Source: an uncultured Rubritalea sp. (lineage in GTDB: Bacteria; Verrucomicrobiota; Verrucomicrobiia; Verrucomicrobiales; Akkermansiaceae). From it: 34,762 nt of DNA. Both the position numbers and the translations under genes were made by a program. How positions within the stretch are numbered: position 1 is the stretch's first letter; every line of letters begins with the position of its first letter. Shown piece by piece: positions 14,814 through 21,405 of this stretch. The stretch lies in assembly GCA_937132085.1 (NCBI GenBank), contig CAKZNV010000229.1, positions 1 through 34,762 of the forward strand, given 5' to 3'. The notes beneath the pieces were generated by a model that had not been told where the DNA came from, made no database searches, and saw only the letters and a program-made list of their open reading frames with translations.

Positions 14814-15608
14814 ATGCCAGCTCAGATACAGCCTCTAAAAGATACTCAGAACGAACGAGACGATCGGAATATAGCGATCGATAGAGTGGGAGTAAAAGCT
14901 CTCCGCTTCCCTGTGGAAGTAAGAGAAAAAGCAGGTGGTTCACAGCGCACAGTCGCTATGACTGCGCTAGCCGTTGATCTTCCTGAACACTTTAAAGGCA
15001 CTCACATGAGTCGCTTCGTAGAGGTGCTAAACTCACACGGCAACTGTCTCGATGTGCGAGAGATGCAGAAGGTTCCAGAAGAAATGCTGGAGCGTCTTGA
15101 AGCATCTAAGGCTCATGTAGAATTCCAATTCCCATTCTTCCGTAATAAGCCAGCACCCGTTACTGGTAAAGCTGGAATGCTTGACTACGAAGTAAAGTTC
15201 GAAGTTGAGGCTAGTAGCGATGGTAGTTCAGATTTCATCTGCACAGTCATGGTGCCAGTGGCGACACTCTGCCCATGCTCTAAAGCGATTAGTGAATATG
15301 GTGCGCATAACCAGCGAGGTCTTGTGACCTTTGCAGTGCGTGCTAAGAAGCCAATCTGGGTGGAAGATCTCATTGATCTAGTAGAATCATCTGCTAGTTG
15401 CGAGTTGTATAGTCTACTCAAGCGACCTGATGAAAAATACGTGACTGAACGTGCGTATGACAATCCAGTTTTTGTTGAAGACCTAGTTCGCAATATTGCT
15501 GCTAAAGCAAATGCACAGGAAAACATTGTGTGGTATAAGGTGGAGGCGGAAAACTTCGAGTCCATTCATAATCACAATGCTTACGCAATGATTGAGAAGC
15601 ATTCTTAA
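14814..15608 (+). CDS. folE2: GTP cyclohydrolase FolE2 (type IB)
   Basis: Converts GTP to 7,8-dihydroneopterin triphosphate, the first step toward tetrahydrofolate (and queuosine in some bacteria), in the cytosol. The 264-aa protein begins with the FolE2-type segment KDTQNERDDRNIAIDRVGV and has GTHMSRFVEVLN and the active-site region TLCPCSKAISEYGAHNQRG, with the conserved cysteine and histidine. It is unrelated in sequence to classical FolE and, as a family, works with metals other than zinc. It begins shortly after the rpsR terminator, and a membrane-protein gene follows after 11 nt, probably co-transcribed. No Shine-Dalgarno precedes the ATG. Confidence 0.93.
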   Translation: MPAQIQPLKDTQNERDDRNIAIDRVGVKALRFPVEVREKAGGSQRTVAMTALAVDLPEHFKGTHMSRFVEVLNSHGNCLDVREMQKVPEEMLERLEASKAHVEFQFPFFRNKPAPVTGKAGMLDYEVKFEVEASSDGSSDFICTVMVPVATLCPCSKAISEYGAHNQRGLVTFAVRAKKPIWVEDLIDLVESSASCELYSLLKRPDEKYVTERAYDNPVFVEDLVRNIAAKANAQENIVWYKVEAENFESIHNHNAYAMIEKHS

Positions 15609-15619
15609 TCTATAAAATT

Positions 15620-16057
15620 ATGAGCAGCATTCAAAATAGCAATCAAACAGTGAGCGGCGATACGACGCCACTGTTCTGGAATAGAATGCTGCGATTTTCT
15701 ATCTACTTCACGATACTTGGAGTTGGGTTAGGGTTTATTTTAGGCAAGATGCTGACTAATACCATTGATTCAGCCAATGCTCAAAAGCAGTCTAATCCAC
15801 GTGTGATGTATGAGAGAGTGGACTCAGAAGGTCGACTGCTAGATAATCAAAAGCTTACTCCAGCAGAGAGAGAGGCGCTGCCAAAAGATGTAGATCCACA
15901 TTCTAACGAAGTAGTGGCTCTCACGGGAAAAGCTAAAGCCTTTATGATTTTTGTGTATATGGCTCCATTCCTTTTGATGGGAATTCTATCAATTCTTACG
16001 TGCCTCTTCATGCGTAAGAGGGAGCGTCAGGCTAGAGTTGATACCTTAAAAGCCTAA
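15620..16057 (+). CDS. Two-helix membrane protein, unknown function
   Basis: Not recognised. It is a 145-aa protein with two membrane helices at about residues 24-43 (FSIYFTILGVGLGFILG) and 107-129 (AFMIFVYMAPFLLMGILSIL). Between them is a roughly 60-residue polar region containing YERVDSEGRLLDNQKLTPAE, and the tail is basic (MRKRERQAR). The topology suggests a loop exposed outside the membrane, but no catalytic or binding motif is visible. It begins 11 nt after folE2, so co-transcription is likely, though nothing ties it to pterin chemistry. A promoter for the next operon lies between this gene and 16195. Confidence 0.65.
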   Translation: MSSIQNSNQTVSGDTTPLFWNRMLRFSIYFTILGVGLGFILGKMLTNTIDSANAQKQSNPRVMYERVDSEGRLLDNQKLTPAEREALPKDVDPHSNEVVALTGKAKAFMIFVYMAPFLLMGILSILTCLFMRKRERQARVDTLKA

Positions 16058-16130
16058 CTTAGGCGTAGTTTAGAGCGGAGCTAGAGGCTTCTGTTCAATT
16101 TGTTTTTTTGAATTAATAATAATATAGTCA

Positions 16131-16158
16131 TTGACTTATTTTGTAGTTTCTGTAAATA
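16131..16158 (+). promoter_or_regulatory. Candidate sigma-70-type promoter of the DCC-MBOAT operon
   Basis: TTGACT (16131-16136), a 16-bp spacer, TAAATA (16153-16158), then a leader of about 30 nt to the ATG at 16195. It matches the bacterial consensus well and is the only good candidate upstream of the six-gene operon. Confidence 0.55.
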
Positions 16159-16194
16159 CTGAAACATCGAAAAGAAATAAATACAATTTAAACA

Positions 16195-16650
16195 ATGAAA
16201 CTAGAAAAAAATGTGCAAGTAATCGAGGTGTTCTATGATGGGCACTGTGGGATGTGCAGTAGTTTTACTGAGTGGCTGGTGAAACAAGGTAGAGCGATCA
16301 AGGTGGACTGTATGGCGTATCAGAGTGATAAGGCTAAGCGTGTGTTTCCAGAGATCGATAGTTTAAAGCCAGATAAGGAAATGATTATCAGAGTGAACGG
16401 TGAGCAGGTGTATCGAGGTGCTGAAGGCTGGGTCTGGTGTCTGTGGAGCTGCGCTAAGTATCGTGATCTTGCCAAGCTTATGAATAGCAGACTGCTGCTA
16501 CCAGTGGCTAAAAAGGTCTGTCTGATGGCATGTATGAATCGTCTGAAGCTTAGCAAGCTGTTCTTCGGCAAAAAAGCTCAAGAGGTGGCGGATGAGATTC
16601 ACCAGCTTGAGGATACCGACTGTGATGATGGAAGCTGCGATTTGAAATAA
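16195..16650 (+). CDS. DCC-family thiol-disulfide oxidoreductase-like protein (DUF393)
   Basis: Small redox-type protein, 151 aa. The N-terminal signature FYDGHCGMCSSFTEWL, with Cys18 and Cys21, is the thioredoxin-like C-X2-C motif of the DCC/DUF393 family; the rest has the alpha-beta pattern of that family (MIIRVNGEQVYRGAEGW). There is no signal peptide, so it is probably cytosolic. The C-terminal tail is acidic with two cysteines (DCDDGSCDLK). It is the first gene of a six-gene operon behind a good promoter, and the next gene starts 38 nt on. Family members are poorly characterised. A redox role supporting the membrane enzymes downstream is an inference. The leader ends TTTAAACA before the ATG, without a Shine-Dalgarno. 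Confidence 0.82.
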   Translation: MKLEKNVQVIEVFYDGHCGMCSSFTEWLVKQGRAIKVDCMAYQSDKAKRVFPEIDSLKPDKEMIIRVNGEQVYRGAEGWVWCLWSCAKYRDLAKLMNSRLLLPVAKKVCLMACMNRLKLSKLFFGKKAQEVADEIHQLEDTDCDDGSCDLK

Positions 16651-16688
16651 TTTTAACCAAGCAACTAACAACCAAACCAAATAAAACA

Positions 16689-17087
16689 ATGATAACGATC
16701 GAATTCTTAGTTTACTGGGCTGGCTTCGTGCTAGCGATGATTACCTTGGCTAACTTTATAGCTCCTGGAATGTTGGGCTATAAGGAGAACCTGGCAAAGG
16801 TGGATACGTTTATTAGACAGGTGTTCTGTGTGCACTGCGGTTACACGGTGCTGATGCTTGTCGGGATGATATTGGCATGTGTGTTCTATAATGCCGAGCT
16901 GATTGCAAACGAAGGATTAGCTAAGGGATTGAACATTTTCCTAGCGGTATTTTGGGGCAGCAGAGTGATCGTTCAGGTCGTCTTCTATGATAAAGCAATC
17001 AAGAAAAAGTATCCAATTTTCAATGTCATGTTCTTCGTGGCGTTCGCCTATTTAGCAGTAATATTCACTTTTTTAACCATAAACTAA
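16689..17087 (+). CDS. Small four-helix membrane protein, paralogue of the 17531 gene product
   Basis: Function unknown. A 132-aa protein, almost entirely membrane-embedded, with helices at about residues 5-25, 42-65, 79-97 and 110-130. It is a paralogue of the protein at 17531-17950: both have a pre-helix 'RQ-hydrophobic' motif (IRQVFCVHCGYTVL here, LRQMFWTYALYVTG there) and a diagnostic 'FWGSRVIVQVVFYD' segment matching 'WWGARVMIQFFFFD'. The duplicated pair flanks an unrelated membrane gene, suggesting a hetero-oligomeric membrane complex. Second gene of the DCC-MBOAT operon. The leader AATAAAACA has no Shine-Dalgarno. Confidence 0.7.
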   Translation: MITIEFLVYWAGFVLAMITLANFIAPGMLGYKENLAKVDTFIRQVFCVHCGYTVLMLVGMILACVFYNAELIANEGLAKGLNIFLAVFWGSRVIVQVVFYDKAIKKKYPIFNVMFFVAFAYLAVIFTFLTIN

Positions 17088-17096
17088 ACACAACAA

Positions 17097-17504
17097 ATGA
17101 AAGCAATTGAATGGAGTTATATTAGTTATCTAGCAGTGGCGGTGCCGCTCACGATGTATGTCGCAAGGAGTCTGTATCAGAATGGAAGAGTCTTTCTGGT
17201 GGAGTGCTTCAAGGGGAATGAAGAACTAGCAGATAGTGTGAATAAGCTATTACTGGTCGGCTTCTATCTAGTGAATCTAGGATTTGTAAGTCTCTATCTG
17301 CGAAGTGATGTGGATGTAGTGGGCTTACGTGGAATTCTTGAATTACTGAGCCGTAAGATCGGTATAGTGATGCTGGTGTTAGGAGGTATGCACTTCTTTA
17401 ATCTCTTCCTATTTACTAAAATAAGTAGAAAGCCAAAACCTCAAGAGCCAAACGAAACGCCAGCATTTGGTGGACGCTACGCAGCTGCTAAAGTAGCGAA
17501 ATAA
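17097..17504 (+). CDS. Small membrane protein, unknown function
   Basis: A 135-aa protein with helices at about residues 8-26, 50-68 and 88-107, and a polar, Pro- and basic-rich tail. Notable segments are SLYQNGRVFLVECFKGNEELADSVNKLL before the second helix, and GMHFFNLFLFTKI at the end of the third (each longer stretch is quoted only in part as a marker). I do not recognise a characterised family, although the NKLLLVGFYLVNLGFVSLYL pattern looks conserved rather than random. It lies between the two paralogous four-helix genes, 9 nt after the first and 26 nt before the second, so the three are expected to be made together. Confidence 0.65.
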   Translation: MKAIEWSYISYLAVAVPLTMYVARSLYQNGRVFLVECFKGNEELADSVNKLLLVGFYLVNLGFVSLYLRSDVDVVGLRGILELLSRKIGIVMLVLGGMHFFNLFLFTKISRKPKPQEPNETPAFGGRYAAAKVAK

Positions 17505-17530
17505 TAACACAAAACATTACAAGGATAGTC

Positions 17531-17950
17531 ATGAATCAATATCTAATTACAACCATACAACTCGCCGGACTAGGGCAACTCGTTCTGGTGCTAGCGAGCG
17601 TGGCTATCCCTAAATGTCTGCAATGGAATGAAGGTCTAGCTGGCTTGAGACCTTTACTGCGTCAGATGTTTTGGACTTATGCTCTGTATGTGACTGGTGT
17701 GCATATCTTCGCAGGAGTGCTGAGTTTGTTTGCTGCTAGTGAACTCTTGAATGGTAGCTTTGTTAGCACTGCGGTTTGTGTGCTAATGACTGTTTGGTGG
17801 GGAGCGAGAGTGATGATTCAGTTCTTCTTTTTCGACAACTCAGATATGCCTAATACGCTATTCAATAAGTTGGCAGAAATTGGCCTAGTGATGCTCTTCA
17901 TTTTTCTAACAGGAGTTTACACCTGGGCTGTAGTGGTGAATTTAAACTAA
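17531..17950 (+). CDS. Small four-helix membrane protein, paralogue of the 16689 gene product
   Basis: Function unknown; 139 aa, with helices at about residues 7-26, 43-67, 78-98 and 117-137. It shares order and key motifs with the 16689 product: RQMF before helix 2, an ELL(N/A)-type loop, and WWGARVMIQFFFFD. It lacks that protein's cysteine pair (CVHC is replaced by WTYA), so the two copies have diverged in possible redox or metal residues. AAGGA at 17520-17524 precedes the ATG at 17531 with suitable spacing, one of the few clear ribosome-binding sites here. The MBOAT-like gene begins one base after its stop, implying tight coupling. Confidence 0.7.
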   Translation: MNQYLITTIQLAGLGQLVLVLASVAIPKCLQWNEGLAGLRPLLRQMFWTYALYVTGVHIFAGVLSLFAASELLNGSFVSTAVCVLMTVWWGARVMIQFFFFDNSDMPNTLFNKLAEIGLVMLFIFLTGVYTWAVVVNLN

Positions 17951-17951
17951 G

Positions 17952-18854
17952 ATGGTGCTTTATCTAACATTTCTAACTTTGGTGATCAGTCAGCTGCTTT
18001 TGGCAAGAGGCTTGGGTGGTAGAATGCCAAGAATCTTGATGTGGGTGGGAGTAGTGACTAGCCTGTTTGTGATGCACTTCGTGGCGATCAATGAGACTGG
18101 ATTTCTGAGAATGATCCTGCTTTGTAATGTGTTACTAGCTGGGATGAAGTGGGTGGTGTATCGCGAGTGGACGCTGGATACTGGGAAGAAGCTTAGCTGG
18201 TGCAGATGGTGGATGTTCTCTGCGTTGTGGTTTGGGATGGAACCGAGTTGTTTTGTAGGGAAATGCCGAGAGGTCGAGTGGAGGAGTCATGCGGTGGTGG
18301 GAGCGCTTTGTGTGTTAGGTGGAATTTTAGGAGTCTGGTTGTGCTGTGTTTGGCAGGTGGAGAATATTGTGATTTTGTTTGTGGCGATAAGTATGGGTTT
18401 TCACTTCGGAATGCTGAGGTTGCTGACTGCATTTTGGCGAATGTTAGGGTTTCCTGTCAGGACCTTATTTAGAAATCCACTCGTGATGAAAGGTTTTAGA
18501 GATTTCTGGGGAATGCGCTGGAATTTAGCTTACTCACAAATGATGGCTAGAGCGGTGAAAAAGCCGTTGACGCCTATCGTTGGTGAGAAGTGGAGTGTGT
18601 TTGCGGTGTTCGTAGCTAGTGGATTATTACATGAGCTAGCGATCACTGTGCCTGTGCAAGGTGGCTATGGTTGGCCGACGCTGTTCTTTGTAATAAATGG
18701 AATTATTACCGTTTTTGAGAAAGAGAAATCATGGCGAATGGGGCTGTGTTGTGGGATTTTATTAGTAATGGGCTTGCCGTATTTGTTTGGTGAGAAATTC
18801 GTGGAGGAAATTATCATTCCTAGCCGTGATGTGTTTGAATATTTAACTTTATAA
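17952..18854 (+). CDS. MBOAT-like (wax synthase type) acyltransferase
   Basis: Polytopic membrane protein of 300 aa, probably an O-acyltransferase moving an acyl chain from acyl-CoA or acyl-ACP to an acceptor. Around eight hydrophobic segments are visible. The catalytic-type features of the wax-synthase-like MBOAT group are present: DFWGMRWNLAYSQMMAR with Trp190-Asn191, and the buried histidine His227 in FVASGLLHELAI. Substrate cannot be read from sequence; long-chain alcohols, sterols or a lipid intermediate made by the neighbours are all possible. It starts one base after the preceding gene, and the epimerase-like gene follows after 5 nt. The base composition is G- and T-rich, like its neighbours. 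Confidence 0.75.
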   Translation: MVLYLTFLTLVISQLLLARGLGGRMPRILMWVGVVTSLFVMHFVAINETGFLRMILLCNVLLAGMKWVVYREWTLDTGKKLSWCRWWMFSALWFGMEPSCFVGKCREVEWRSHAVVGALCVLGGILGVWLCCVWQVENIVILFVAISMGFHFGMLRLLTAFWRMLGFPVRTLFRNPLVMKGFRDFWGMRWNLAYSQMMARAVKKPLTPIVGEKWSVFAVFVASGLLHELAITVPVQGGYGWPTLFFVINGIITVFEKEKSWRMGLCCGILLVMGLPYLFGEKFVEEIIIPSRDVFEYLTL

Positions 18855-18859
18855 ATGAG

Positions 18860-19750
18860 ATGAAAAAGATAGTGATCGCAGGAGCAAATGGATTTATGGG
18901 TAGGTGTCTGAGTCGGTATTTCATGGCGAAAAGCTGGCAGGTAATTGGTCTAGCTAGGCGTAAAGATGGACTGGCGGATGGCGTTACTTTTGCACAGTGG
19001 GATGGAGTGAGTCTTGGGGGATGGAAAGATCTGTTAGACGGTGCAGAGATACTAGTAAATCTGGCAGGGAGAACTGTGAATTGTCGTTATAACGAGAAGA
19101 ATAAAAATCAGATAATCTACTCACGAGTGAGTAGCACGAAGGTGCTCGGAGAAGCAGTCAGAGCATGCGCCAATCCTCCTAAAGTATGGATGAACTCAAG
19201 CACTGCGACCATTTACAGACATGCAGAAGATCATGCTCAAACTGAGAGTGAAGGAGAGTTAGGTAAAGGCTTCAGTGTTAGTGTGGCTAAAGCGTGGGAG
19301 AAAGCATTCTTTGACGCTGAGGTCAGTGATTCAGTGCGGAAGATAGCGCTGCGAACTGCGATCGTGATGTCTGATGAAGAGGGGACGGTGATGGATGTTC
19401 TCACAGGTTTAGCCAAGAAGCGCCTAGGTGGTAAAATGGGTAGCGGTAAGCAGAAGGTGAGCTGGGTTGGTATTGATGATGTCTGTAGAGTGGTGGAATG
19501 GATGTATGAGAATGAAAATGCCAAAGGCGTCTATAATGTGGCCGCACCAAATGCGATGACGAACGCAGAAATGATGAAGTCTGTTAGAGGACGAGCAGGA
19601 GTCAAATGGGGCCTACCAGCTACTAAATGGATGCTTGAGATCGGCGCTTTCTTCCTCAGAACAGAAACCGAACTCATCCTAAAAAGCCGCTGGGTCTATC
19701 CGGAGCGATTACTAGATGAAGGCTTCAAGTTCGAGCGTGAGAGATTTTAG
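18860..19750 (+). CDS. TIGR01777-family NAD(P)-binding epimerase/reductase
   Basis: Extended short-chain dehydrogenase/reductase of the TIGR01777 (YfcH-like) family, 296 aa. It has the N-terminal Rossmann motif GANGFMGRCL, the family marker VNLAGRTVNCRYNEKNK, NSSTATIY in place of the usual catalytic Ser, and a C-terminal DUF1731-like region ending ERLLDEGFKFE. In the place of the classical YxxxK, SVSVAKAWEKAFFD provides Lys in the AKAWE context. Biochemical function is unknown for the family, though members often sit near lipid genes. Last gene of the operon; the start reads ATGAGATGAAAAAG, where the first ATG is followed by a stop and the second (18860) is used. Confidence 0.82.
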   Translation: MKKIVIAGANGFMGRCLSRYFMAKSWQVIGLARRKDGLADGVTFAQWDGVSLGGWKDLLDGAEILVNLAGRTVNCRYNEKNKNQIIYSRVSSTKVLGEAVRACANPPKVWMNSSTATIYRHAEDHAQTESEGELGKGFSVSVAKAWEKAFFDAEVSDSVRKIALRTAIVMSDEEGTVMDVLTGLAKKRLGGKMGSGKQKVSWVGIDDVCRVVEWMYENENAKGVYNVAAPNAMTNAEMMKSVRGRAGVKWGLPATKWMLEIGAFFLRTETELILKSRWVYPERLLDEGFKFERERF

Positions 19751-19821
19751 GCGATATTTGTAGTTTGCTAGTGGGGTGGAATCTCGGTAAAACCAGTTAA
19801 GTTATCTAACCACCTTGATCT

Positions 19822-21405
19822 GTGCAGAAATTTAAATTTAACCTCGTTGCTCTTGTAGGCATTCTTTTGCTGAGCCTTATAATGGCTGGGTATGGGCCGT
19901 TGGCTGAGTCAGCTAGTCTGCGGGCTCTTTGGCCGGCGGTGGTGGCTTTGGTGGTGATTGTTGTGACGCATCAGGCTATTTTGGGTTTGTTCTTTGGTGC
20001 GTTGGCCGGGGTGATGTTTCTGACTGGGGGGCAGGTTTTTGGGTCTGTGGTGTCGCTGACTGAGGATCACTTTTTTCCTGCTTTGTCGGGGCCTTGGCAT
20101 GTTGGGGCGATTTTGTTTACCTTGATATTGGGTGCGTTTGCATTGGTGATCGAGAAGTCGGGTGGGTTTGAGACTTTGGCTCATCGGATATTAGCAAAGA
20201 AGAATGGTAACCCTAAGCGTAGGCTGGAGGGGACGATTGCGGGGCTTGGGTTTCTTTGTTTCTTCGATGGATTAGCGAATACTTTATTGCTGGGTAGGAT
20301 TGCTCAGCCATTGGCGGATAGGCTTCGGGTGCCACGAGCAAGGTTGGCTTATATTGTGGATTCGACTGCTAGCTCGGTGGCTTGTGTGGCGTTTATTTCG
20401 ACTTGGATCGCTACGCAGCTTTCGCTGATTGAGCAATCGATAAAGCCTTATGGGCAGGTGACGGATAGTCCTTATGTTCTGTTTTTCCAATCGATTCCGT
20501 ATAACTTCTATTGCTTGTTTACTCTGATCTTTTTGGTGTTCGTGATCGCTAGGCAGTGGAATATTGGGCCGATGAAACAAGCTTCTGTTAGAGGGGTCGA
20601 AGTAGTGCCAAAGACGAAGGAGGTGACACCTATCCGAACAGCGTTGTTACCGATTTTGATTTTATCTGTGGCTATTTTGACTTTGTTTTATACATGGGAA
20701 ACTGTGGATCTGTGGCCAGTGACTACTGATAAGTTATCGACCGCATTTAGTGGAAACGCTGGGCCTTATGCTCTGACTGTTGGTGCGTTGATTGGTTTGT
20801 TAGCGGCTTGTGTGTTTTTTCCTAAGAAGAAACGGAAGGCTCTGCCTGAAGCTGTGCAGTCTGGTGTGGCTTCTATGCTGATGCCGGTGTTGTTGTTAAT
20901 CTTAGCATGGACGTTTGGGAGTGTGATTGCTGAGCTTGGGACAGGGGCTTGGGTGGCTGCTGCGTTGGGAAATAGTTTTCCTGTGCATTATCTTCCTGTG
21001 GCTATTTTTGTGGTGGGAGCGTTGGTTTCATTTATCACAGGTTCATCTTGGGGGACGATGGCGCTACTGATGCCGATCGCGATTCCTTCGTATCTAGATC
21101 TAGCTGTGGGTGACGTAGATCTACTGCCTGCAGCGATAGCGGCGGTATTTAGTGGCGCTGTGTTTGGTGATCATTGTTCGCCATTTTCGGATACAACTAT
21201 TGTGGCGGCTTTTGCCTGTGGGACGACTCCGCAGGAACATGTGATGACGCAGCTACCTTATGCTCTGATTGCGACTGTGACTGCGGTTGTTTTAGGTTAT
21301 TTGCCGATAGCGCATGGGCTTCACCCTGTGTTCGCTCTGGTGGCTGGGGCAGTCTTTCTAGGTGGTCTGACTTATCTGGCTACTCGGGGTAGAAATAATC
21401 ACTGA
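19822..21405 (+). CDS. Na+/H+ antiporter, NhaC family
   Basis: Polytopic secondary transporter of 527 aa with about 12 hydrophobic segments. It is placed in the NhaC/ArsB-like ion-transporter group from GPWHVGAILFTLILGAFALVIEKSGG, quoted here as a position marker near residue 90, plus FDGLANTLLLGR, VDSTASSVACVAFISTW, FITGSSWGTMALLMP and FGDHCSPFSDTTI. The last two are hallmarks of NhaC-type proteins. Proton-coupled Na+ export is the likely role; related malate-lactate or amino-acid antiporters cannot be excluded. It starts at GTG (no ATG nearby), with a short gap after the DCC-MBOAT operon. The first third is richer in TTG and GGG codons than the flanking genes. No terminator is seen after it. 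Confidence 0.85.
   Translation: MQKFKFNLVALVGILLLSLIMAGYGPLAESASLRALWPAVVALVVIVVTHQAILGLFFGALAGVMFLTGGQVFGSVVSLTEDHFFPALSGPWHVGAILFTLILGAFALVIEKSGGFETLAHRILAKKNGNPKRRLEGTIAGLGFLCFFDGLANTLLLGRIAQPLADRLRVPRARLAYIVDSTASSVACVAFISTWIATQLSLIEQSIKPYGQVTDSPYVLFFQSIPYNFYCLFTLIFLVFVIARQWNIGPMKQASVRGVEVVPKTKEVTPIRTALLPILILSVAILTLFYTWETVDLWPVTTDKLSTAFSGNAGPYALTVGALIGLLAACVFFPKKKRKALPEAVQSGVASMLMPVLLLILAWTFGSVIAELGTGAWVAAALGNSFPVHYLPVAIFVVGALVSFITGSSWGTMALLMPIAIPSYLDLAVGDVDLLPAAIAAVFSGAVFGDHCSPFSDTTIVAAFACGTTPQEHVMTQLPYALIATVTAVVLGYLPIAHGLHPVFALVAGAVFLGGLTYLATRGRNNH

Follow-up and report, generated by a model that had tools for sequence, protein, structure and literature searches.

What is made by six closely spaced genes of an uncultured Rubritalea species, and do these genes form one functional unit? 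The genes, which we call A to F, occupy positions 16195-19750 on the forward strand of contig CAKZNV010000229.1 (assembly GCA_937132085.1), and the whole stretch of DNA analyzed, positions 1 to 34,762, is referred to here as the window. A first-pass annotation of this DNA had proposed that they are an undescribed lipid-modification operon. By computation, we established the gene set and its protein families, the pairing of one small membrane protein gene (D) with the gene for an MBOAT acyltransferase (E), the conservation of a palindromic operator in front of the operon, and common sites of this kind in front of other genes. Based on these results, we propose, with a probability of roughly 0.56, that the operon is a membrane-lipid O-acylation module, possibly isoprenoid-linked, that is repressed by a GbsR-type protein and belongs to a dispersed regulon.

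All six open reading frames (ORFs) lie on the same strand, with gaps of 38, 9, 26, 1, and 5 bp from A to F, exactly as first annotated, and the earlier family assignments of A, E, and F hold at curated cut-offs. Gene A (16195-16650) encodes a DCC-family thiol-disulfide oxidoreductase (also DUF393) that passes the DCC1-like model PF04134 (39.7 bits; cut-off 27.8), carries a C-X2-C motif within YDGHCGMC (DGHCGMC), and is the sole PF04134 match in the whole genome. Gene E (17952-18854) passes the MBOAT_2 (wax-synthase-type acyltransferase) model PF13813 at 39.6 bits, where the cut-off is 25. Gene F (18860-19750) encodes an NAD(P)-binding oxidoreductase of the SDR39U1/YfcH type that scores 219.7 bits with TIGR01777 (cut-off 207.35) and matches 3oh8 and the SDR39U1 structure 4b4o. 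The remaining genes, B (16689-17087), C (17097-17504), and D (17531-17950), encode the three small membrane proteins that had been annotated, none of which matches a Pfam or NCBIfam family over its cut-off. They are not three of a kind, since B and D are paralogues (26% identity, BLASTP E 2e-11) and C belongs to a separate, undescribed family. A DoxX identity for B and D was considered and rejected: 71 members searched at E ≤ 0.1 gave matches to 14 Pfam families, DoxX not being one of them, and these stray matches, of 1-3 members each with a best E of 0.00032 (DUF2162, one member), were not trusted.

The most constant feature of related loci is the D-MBOAT pair. In a set of 58 genomes that includes the window's own, D adjoins the MBOAT gene in 22 of 22 loci with a strong MBOAT match (170 bits or more; the next match scores 46), within 113 bp and on the same strand, with D first in 15 pairs and the MBOAT gene first in 7. 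The B/D family is present in 26 of the 58 genomes, and only four of these are without a strong MBOAT match: one in which the contig ends (G001) and three with weak, B-like matches (G009, G020, and G050). The pair was also followed through named genomes of several phyla, where the best 80 of 374 MBOAT relatives were examined, which is not a random sample. Here 77 loci have a D gene a short way upstream, on the same strand and ending within 700 bp of the start of the MBOAT match; two of the other three loci are cut by contig ends (L141 and L163), and one, from Caenarcanales (L179), lacks D. Pairwise identities have a median of 40% among D proteins and 37% among MBOAT proteins, and the pair is found also in Paenibacillus and Cohnella. 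These data demonstrate that the steady core of the system is D together with a wax-synthase-type MBOAT, a core that is smaller, and whose reach is wider, than first read.

The AlphaFold2 model of D is a 4-helix membrane protein with a mean predicted local distance difference test score (pLDDT) of 95.6. Against solved structures its best Foldseek E is 0.26, and the best VIA Z is 9.8, with a root-mean-square deviation of 3.2 over 125 residues, to 4-helix bundles. The fold search for D yielded common 4-helix bundles only; the sigma-2 receptor and DsbB appear among these matches and were not trusted. An MBOAT encoded beside a partner is familiar from the DltB/DltX/DltD and AlgI/AlgJ-X systems, and the D-MBOAT pair resembles these systems in that respect. 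It differs from them at the level of families: PF03062 finds two other loci of this genome and not E, the DltB model gives a weak match in 8 of 41 MBOAT members (best E 0.00027), and no Pfam family matches the window's D, the models of Dlt/Alg-type partners included. Searches of the open-licence literature found nothing that treats MBOAT, wax synthase, and a small membrane protein together in bacteria, no paper joining MBOAT and TIGR01777, and, judged by title, nothing related on MBOAT wax synthases in Bacteroidetes or Planctomycetes.

For the MBOAT protein itself, MBOAT_2 is matched by all 41 aligned members at E ≤ 0.1, and His227 and Asn191, which we take to be the active-site residues of MBOAT_2, are invariant in all 41. 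Profile comparison places DGAT1 nearest among solved structures (E 1.9e-7), with His227 and Asn191 aligned over its active-site stretch. Unlike known MBOAT_2 members, E is bacterial, about 300 residues long, and tied to an undescribed 4-helix protein; we know of no such partner for plant wax synthase or fungal Tri7. Judged by title and the start of the abstract, no open-licence paper on PF13813 concerns bacteria, and a tblastn search of plasmids with the MBOAT sequence gave no match. DCC and MBOAT_2 domains occur in a single ORF in two genomes from another family of the order (L047 and L052), a fusion that ties the thiol protein and the acyltransferase together.

The same enzyme could serve general storage, with the MBOAT making wax esters or triacylglycerol and the other genes only loosely associated. 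The match of E to MBOAT_2, the wax-synthase family, would suit such a role, as would the profile match to DGAT1 and the occurrence of D-MBOAT as a lone pair, unaccompanied by the rest of the set, at most loci outside Verrucomicrobiota. We consider storage synthesis rather unlikely in view of the DCC-MBOAT fusions and of an operator, described below, that is common to SRPBCC, SDR, and DUF2071 genes. In addition, there is no fatty-acyl reductase among the 25 listed of 121 families matched by 128 neighboring proteins, a result obtained with no dedicated search for this enzyme.

To describe the genes that accompany the core, the stretches around B/D matches were annotated with profiles built in this analysis. 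Members of the genus show variants of the order A-B-C-D-E-F: C stands ahead of DCC at the start of the set in L036 and L037, and B is absent from L037 and C from L035, so the expectation that relatives keep all six genes in the same order did not survive. Outside the genus there are clusters of GbsR-like, C, DCC, and TIGR01777 genes without MBOAT (L113, L114, and L117) and clusters of MBOAT, D, TIGR01777, and GbsR-like genes without C or DCC (L127, L128, and L130), and DUF2071, DoxX_3, or SRPBCC-type genes join some clusters. Within 4 kb of 35 Verrucomicrobiota MBOAT loci we found D at 33, DCC at 27, B at 25, TIGR01777 at 14, GbsR-like at 11, and C at 9; the corresponding numbers for 45 loci of other phyla are D 44, GbsR-like 5, DCC 4, TIGR01777 4, B 3, and C 3. 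In a phylum sample of 288 genomes searched at E ≤ 0.001, C matched in 20 genomes (17 strongly) and MBOAT in 32 (12 strongly), where strong matches were set by a score gap, and both were strong in only three (G000, G079, and G133). From this varying membership and order, we conclude that these loci are a family of related clusters around D and MBOAT and not one fixed operon.

The scattering of genes among relatives, which the first-pass annotation had regarded as a possible refutation, is real for C, DCC, and TIGR01777, which stand together without MBOAT in the three loci named above, and does not extend to the D-MBOAT pair. Because the order varies and several parts occur apart, one could ask whether the six genes are a chance run of co-directional, functionally unrelated genes. 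This is very improbable and already hard to hold, since the same genes and the same operator recur together in many genomes with controls near zero. Of the proposed undescribed operon, then, a gene set that recurs beyond chance stands, and a single fixed unit does not.

Several related arrangements were seen in the course of this comparison. A second recurrent cluster is free of MBOAT and combines DUF2071, a membrane-anchored methyltransferase, and a B/D-like small protein (L038:5344-10111, L055:8064-9927, and L060:1771-3676); in R. profundi (L038, G004), the methyltransferase and the small protein of this cluster are present twice. In some relatives, two tandem TIGR01777 genes end the cluster (L035:7504-9370, L040:8115-10679, and L041:5232-7080). 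At L196:5705-6529, a DCC domain is followed by a membrane domain in one ORF, and the latter clusters with 155-156-residue genes of L178 and L210. Protein C is mostly helical by its AlphaFold2 model, whose middling quality (mean pLDDT 70.6) limits a fold search that found nothing below E 3; in relatives, its gene often adjoins GbsR-like, DCC, and TIGR01777 genes. No paper joining any two of DUF2071, DoxX, and DUF393 was found in the open-licence literature.

Comparison of the sequences in front of these genes revealed a second conserved element, which the first-pass annotation had missed along with the dispersed regulon that it appears to define. The promoter of the operon on the forward strand consists of a -35 box TTGACT (16131-16136) and, after an 18-nucleotide spacer, a -10 box AATACT (16155-16160). 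That annotation had called it a good promoter, which the consensus by itself does not bear out: a scan of 15500-20000 on both strands gave 11 sites against 7.6 +/- 2.7 in shuffles, not clearly above chance. What does sustain the call is that the -10 box lies within an inverted repeat, GTTTCTGTAAATACTGAAAC (16146-16165), a candidate GbsR-type operator that is conserved before homologous operons, as comparison of the loci showed. Its core in the window, TTTCTGTAAATACTGAAA (16147-16164), differs at one position from TTTCAGTAATTACTGAAA, and a palindrome close to the latter is found 5' of GbsR-like and DCC genes in many loci. In Verrucomicrobiota, and in some members of Bacteroidota, the form TTTCAGTAnnTACTGAAA recurs 5' of these genes and also 5' of a GbsR-like repressor gene.

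This element is far more frequent in the clusters than a control pattern. The site at 16147-16164 is the only one in the window with ≤2 mismatches, and just 4 of 100 shuffled windows held any site (mean 0.04). The cluster loci (L113-L210, 1.34 Mb in all) contain 20 sites that match exactly, 22 with one mismatch, and 21 with two, compared with 0, 0, and 1 for the reversed operator pattern, which is a fair comparison because the cluster stretches were chosen for holding these genes. Counting the window as well, 64 sites have ≤2 mismatches, and 61 of these fall within 420 bp 5' of one of the set's genes (DCC 25, GbsR-like 19, C 10, D 3, B 2, TIGR01777 1, and MBOAT 1). The outer TTTC and GAAA are invariant at all 61, and TTGAC, the start of the -35 box, occurs within 30 nucleotides 5' of the operator at 15 of them, 13 times at a distance of 15-18 nucleotides. 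Among Verrucomicrobiota, 27 of 33 loci carry a site with ≤2 mismatches in the 3.5 kb upstream of D; among the 44 loci of other phyla 7 do, all of them belonging to the 20 that come from Bacteroidota, and the control gives none in either group. None of three exact 18-letter operator strings was found in the open-licence literature.

The operator also stands in front of genes far from the clusters. We searched 14 relatives that had been picked by hand (10 of the genus and 4 of the family, out of 57) and found 39 sites with ≤1 mismatch, compared with 2 for the control, 14 of them on cluster contigs. Of the 25 on other contigs, 2 fall inside genes; the remaining 23 stand in front of a gene, at most 400 bp from its start, with the following counts: SRPBCC 6, polyprenyl diphosphate synthase 5 (L258, L261, L272, L277, and L279), SDR 3, DUF2071 2, membrane protein 2, TetR_C_23 2, GbsR-like 2, and DCC 1. 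A DoxX gene on contig C46 sits on the other side of an operator site and was left out of this count. In the window's own genome, a site without mismatches precedes an SRPBCC-type gene, and sites with 1 mismatch precede this operon, a gene for a 309-residue membrane protein (followed by a PEMT-family gene), and a polyprenyl diphosphate synthase gene (L235:5420), the last site overlapping the end of the preceding ORF. Sites with 2 mismatches precede the GbsR-like gene, DUF2071, and the ferrochelatase gene hemH (L236:4716; G000:C254:9715), and an eighth site is inside a gene; the DUF2071 and GbsR-like sites are each backed in two relatives. Thus DUF2071 and SRPBCC-type genes, which are neighbors of MBOAT in some genomes, are scattered here yet keep the operator. 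The same operator before SRPBCC, DUF2071, SDR, and polyprenyl synthase genes indicates that the operon is probably part of a dispersed regulon.

The SRPBCC proteins provide a further tie to the operon. The profile of 10 members has its best solved match in residues 2-118 of 3oh8 (E 0.00049), and F matches residues 150-378 of the same structure. SRPBCC and F-type domains thus appear, from these profile alignments, to form a single protein elsewhere; in 3oh8 (SRPBCC-epimerase) both are joined, whereas here the SRPBCC gene and F are separate, on separate contigs, and have a common operator. Of the 10 members, 4 and 3 are recognized by Polyketide_cyc models, and the member from this genome is not among them. 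The regulon membrane protein bears a loose likeness to an in-cluster one (L048; 25% identity, E 2e-7).

The likely regulator is encoded by a GbsR-like gene at G000:C201:35515-36024 (L224:6501-7049), 72% identical to the cluster protein of R. profundi, with a two-mismatch operator-like site at its start. Like members of the GbsR family (GbsR, OpuAR, and CydE), it belongs to a group with MarR-like profile similarity, here just under the curated cut-off, and an operator before its own gene. Two footprints are published for the GbsR-type repressor CydE, one of which, TATTTCAGAAATTTCTGAAAGTTCA, contains the same palindrome with two symmetric changes (PMC6096048). The candidate operator described here shares TTTCAG..CTGAAA with that footprint. 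The GbsR-like genes differ from the family in their context: in the loci examined, they are not beside choline, betaine, or cytochrome bd genes and instead precede membrane-lipid-type genes. A survey leaves 73 of 179 GbsR-type genes without a deducible function, mainly in Euryarchaeota and Bacteroidetes (PMC6207618).

Modification of a lipid or acyl compound, as first proposed, is still the most plausible reading of an acyltransferase, a reductase, and a thiol-redox protein encoded together, strengthened by the DCC-MBOAT fusions, the D-MBOAT pair, and the common operator; for the pathway, we infer the following course. A GbsR-type repressor encoded elsewhere in the genome would bind the palindrome over the -10 box and silence the operon until it is released by a ligand or by stress. 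The MBOAT protein, through His227 and Asn191, would then work with D as a dedicated subunit to esterify a hydroxyl group on a hydrophobic acceptor with a fatty acyl group taken from acyl-coenzyme A or acyl-acyl carrier protein. The TIGR01777 reductase, with the SRPBCC protein of the regulon as a lipid-binding partner, and the DCC thiol-redox protein may prepare or recycle this acceptor. B and C could be further membrane subunits, and DUF2071 and SDR proteins might perform other steps in some species. An isoprenoid-derived acceptor is the leading guess because a polyprenyl diphosphate synthase is under the same operator.

One candidate product of such a pathway is the class of acyl-xylosyl C30 carotenoids of Rubritalea squalenifaciens, a species of the same genus that produces diapolycopenedioic acid xylosyl esters containing 2-acyl-D-xylose (PMC3967232). 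If the acceptor were such a glyco-carotenoid, the MBOAT protein would make the 2-acyl-xylose of C30 carotenoid esters within a pigment or photoprotection regulon. The polyprenyl synthase gene behind the operator in this genome and in 5 of the 14 relatives fits this possibility, as do three squalene/phytoene synthase homologues in this genome. We nevertheless think it unlikely. At the operator sites that were inspected, we noticed no gene for carotenoid synthesis other than polyprenyl synthase, no crtI-type desaturase exceeds its cut-off in the genome (best 46.6 against 238.1 bits), and neither a photolyase nor a carotenoid enzyme is among the 25 listed of the 121 neighboring families. A carotenoid cluster may still lie beside the squalene/phytoene synthase genes, where contigs end or neighbors look unrelated by eye, in an inspection made with no family search there. 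The D-MBOAT pair also occurs in Paenibacillus and Cohnella, which to our knowledge are not noted for acyl-xylosyl carotenoid pigments. A link to light through photolyases, as in LitR clusters (PMC8612252 and PMC9758184), was not adopted; with 25 of the 121 matched families listed, the lack of a photolyase among them leaves such a link some likelihood.

The genes behind the operator could instead point to respiratory quinones or haem-linked membrane redox as the target of the module. DCC, SRPBCC, TetR/COQ9-like, polyprenyl synthase, and perhaps ferrochelatase genes are behind the same operator; one operator-linked gene has a weak COQ9 match (E 0.007), and the SRPBCC proteins of the regulon would be COQ10-like. 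Elsewhere, the GbsR-type CydE controls cytochrome bd (PMC6096048). Such a target is quite unlikely: it leaves the acyltransferase without a role, the COQ9 and COQ10 resemblances are weak, and the hemH site, with its 2 mismatches, is near the control level.

For the O-acylation module under GbsR-type repression, which we prefer, there are also several points that weigh against it. We infer binding of the operator by the GbsR-like protein, acyl transfer, the subunit role of D, the acceptor, and the ligand. The identity matrices of D and MBOAT correlate closely (Mantel r 0.89, 0 of 999 permutations, for 73 of 77 pairs after a length filter), which favors the pairing, but shared species history by itself accounts for part of this correlation. 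The work of F could be done by a second TIGR01777 gene elsewhere in the genome, which outscores it at 294.9 bits. In 37 of 44 loci of other phyla no operator precedes D, so that the pair also works without the repressor, and polyprenyl synthase serves quinones and the cell wall as well.

Other such points concern the regulator and its sites. The repressor gene is outside the window on a separate contig, and its label GbsR-like is tentative, based in part on the operator match and on profile scores under the cut-offs: 26.9 bits against 27 for MarR_2 in a relative (L036) and 51.8 against 218 (E 8.3e-14) for CudC in the genome's own protein. The second CydE footprint does not contain the palindrome (PMC6096048). 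At 3 mismatches, the cluster loci hold 21 sites and the control 17, no clear excess, and in the window's own genome there are 8 sites with ≤2 mismatches against 5 for the reversed control, which makes the two-mismatch sites at hemH, DUF2071, and the GbsR-like gene weak. No site with ≤1 mismatch precedes hemH in any of the 14 relatives. Four of the 23 sites in these relatives have a divergent gene starting on the other side (L262, L270, L273, and L275), leaving it uncertain which gene is regulated. Finally, the regulon and in-cluster SRPBCC proteins are only 18-24% identical, and for the one in this genome a Pfam search at E 0.01 found no match.

Two neighbors on the same strand were also characterized. 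Upstream, at 14814-15608, is a gene for a FolE2-type GTP cyclohydrolase, of which no homologue was labelled in the relatives' stretches L033-L061. On the 3' side of the operon, at 19822-21405, a transporter of the Na+/H+ antiporter family (PF03553) lies outside the conserved set; it scores 120.8 bits with the Tet(35) profile, far under the cut-off of 750.

With the conserved operator and the pairing of D with MBOAT, what began as a guess on one operon becomes a testable proposal with a subunit pair, a repressor, an 18-bp site, and a list of genes behind that site. They also offer a handle on TIGR01777, DUF2071, DCC, the D/B and C families, and the Bacteroidota GbsR-type genes that the survey left unassigned (PMC6207618). 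More tentatively, and as a possibility we still find doubtful, a GbsR-type repressor may run a dispersed regulon in both Verrucomicrobiota and Bacteroidota for an acylated isoprenoid or polyketide-like membrane lipid, in which MBOAT and its obligate subunit D would be a two-protein enzyme and SRPBCC/TIGR01777, DUF2071, DCC, B, and C would perform other steps. If true, this would give Bacteroidota GbsR-type genes and several families without a function their first common function at once.

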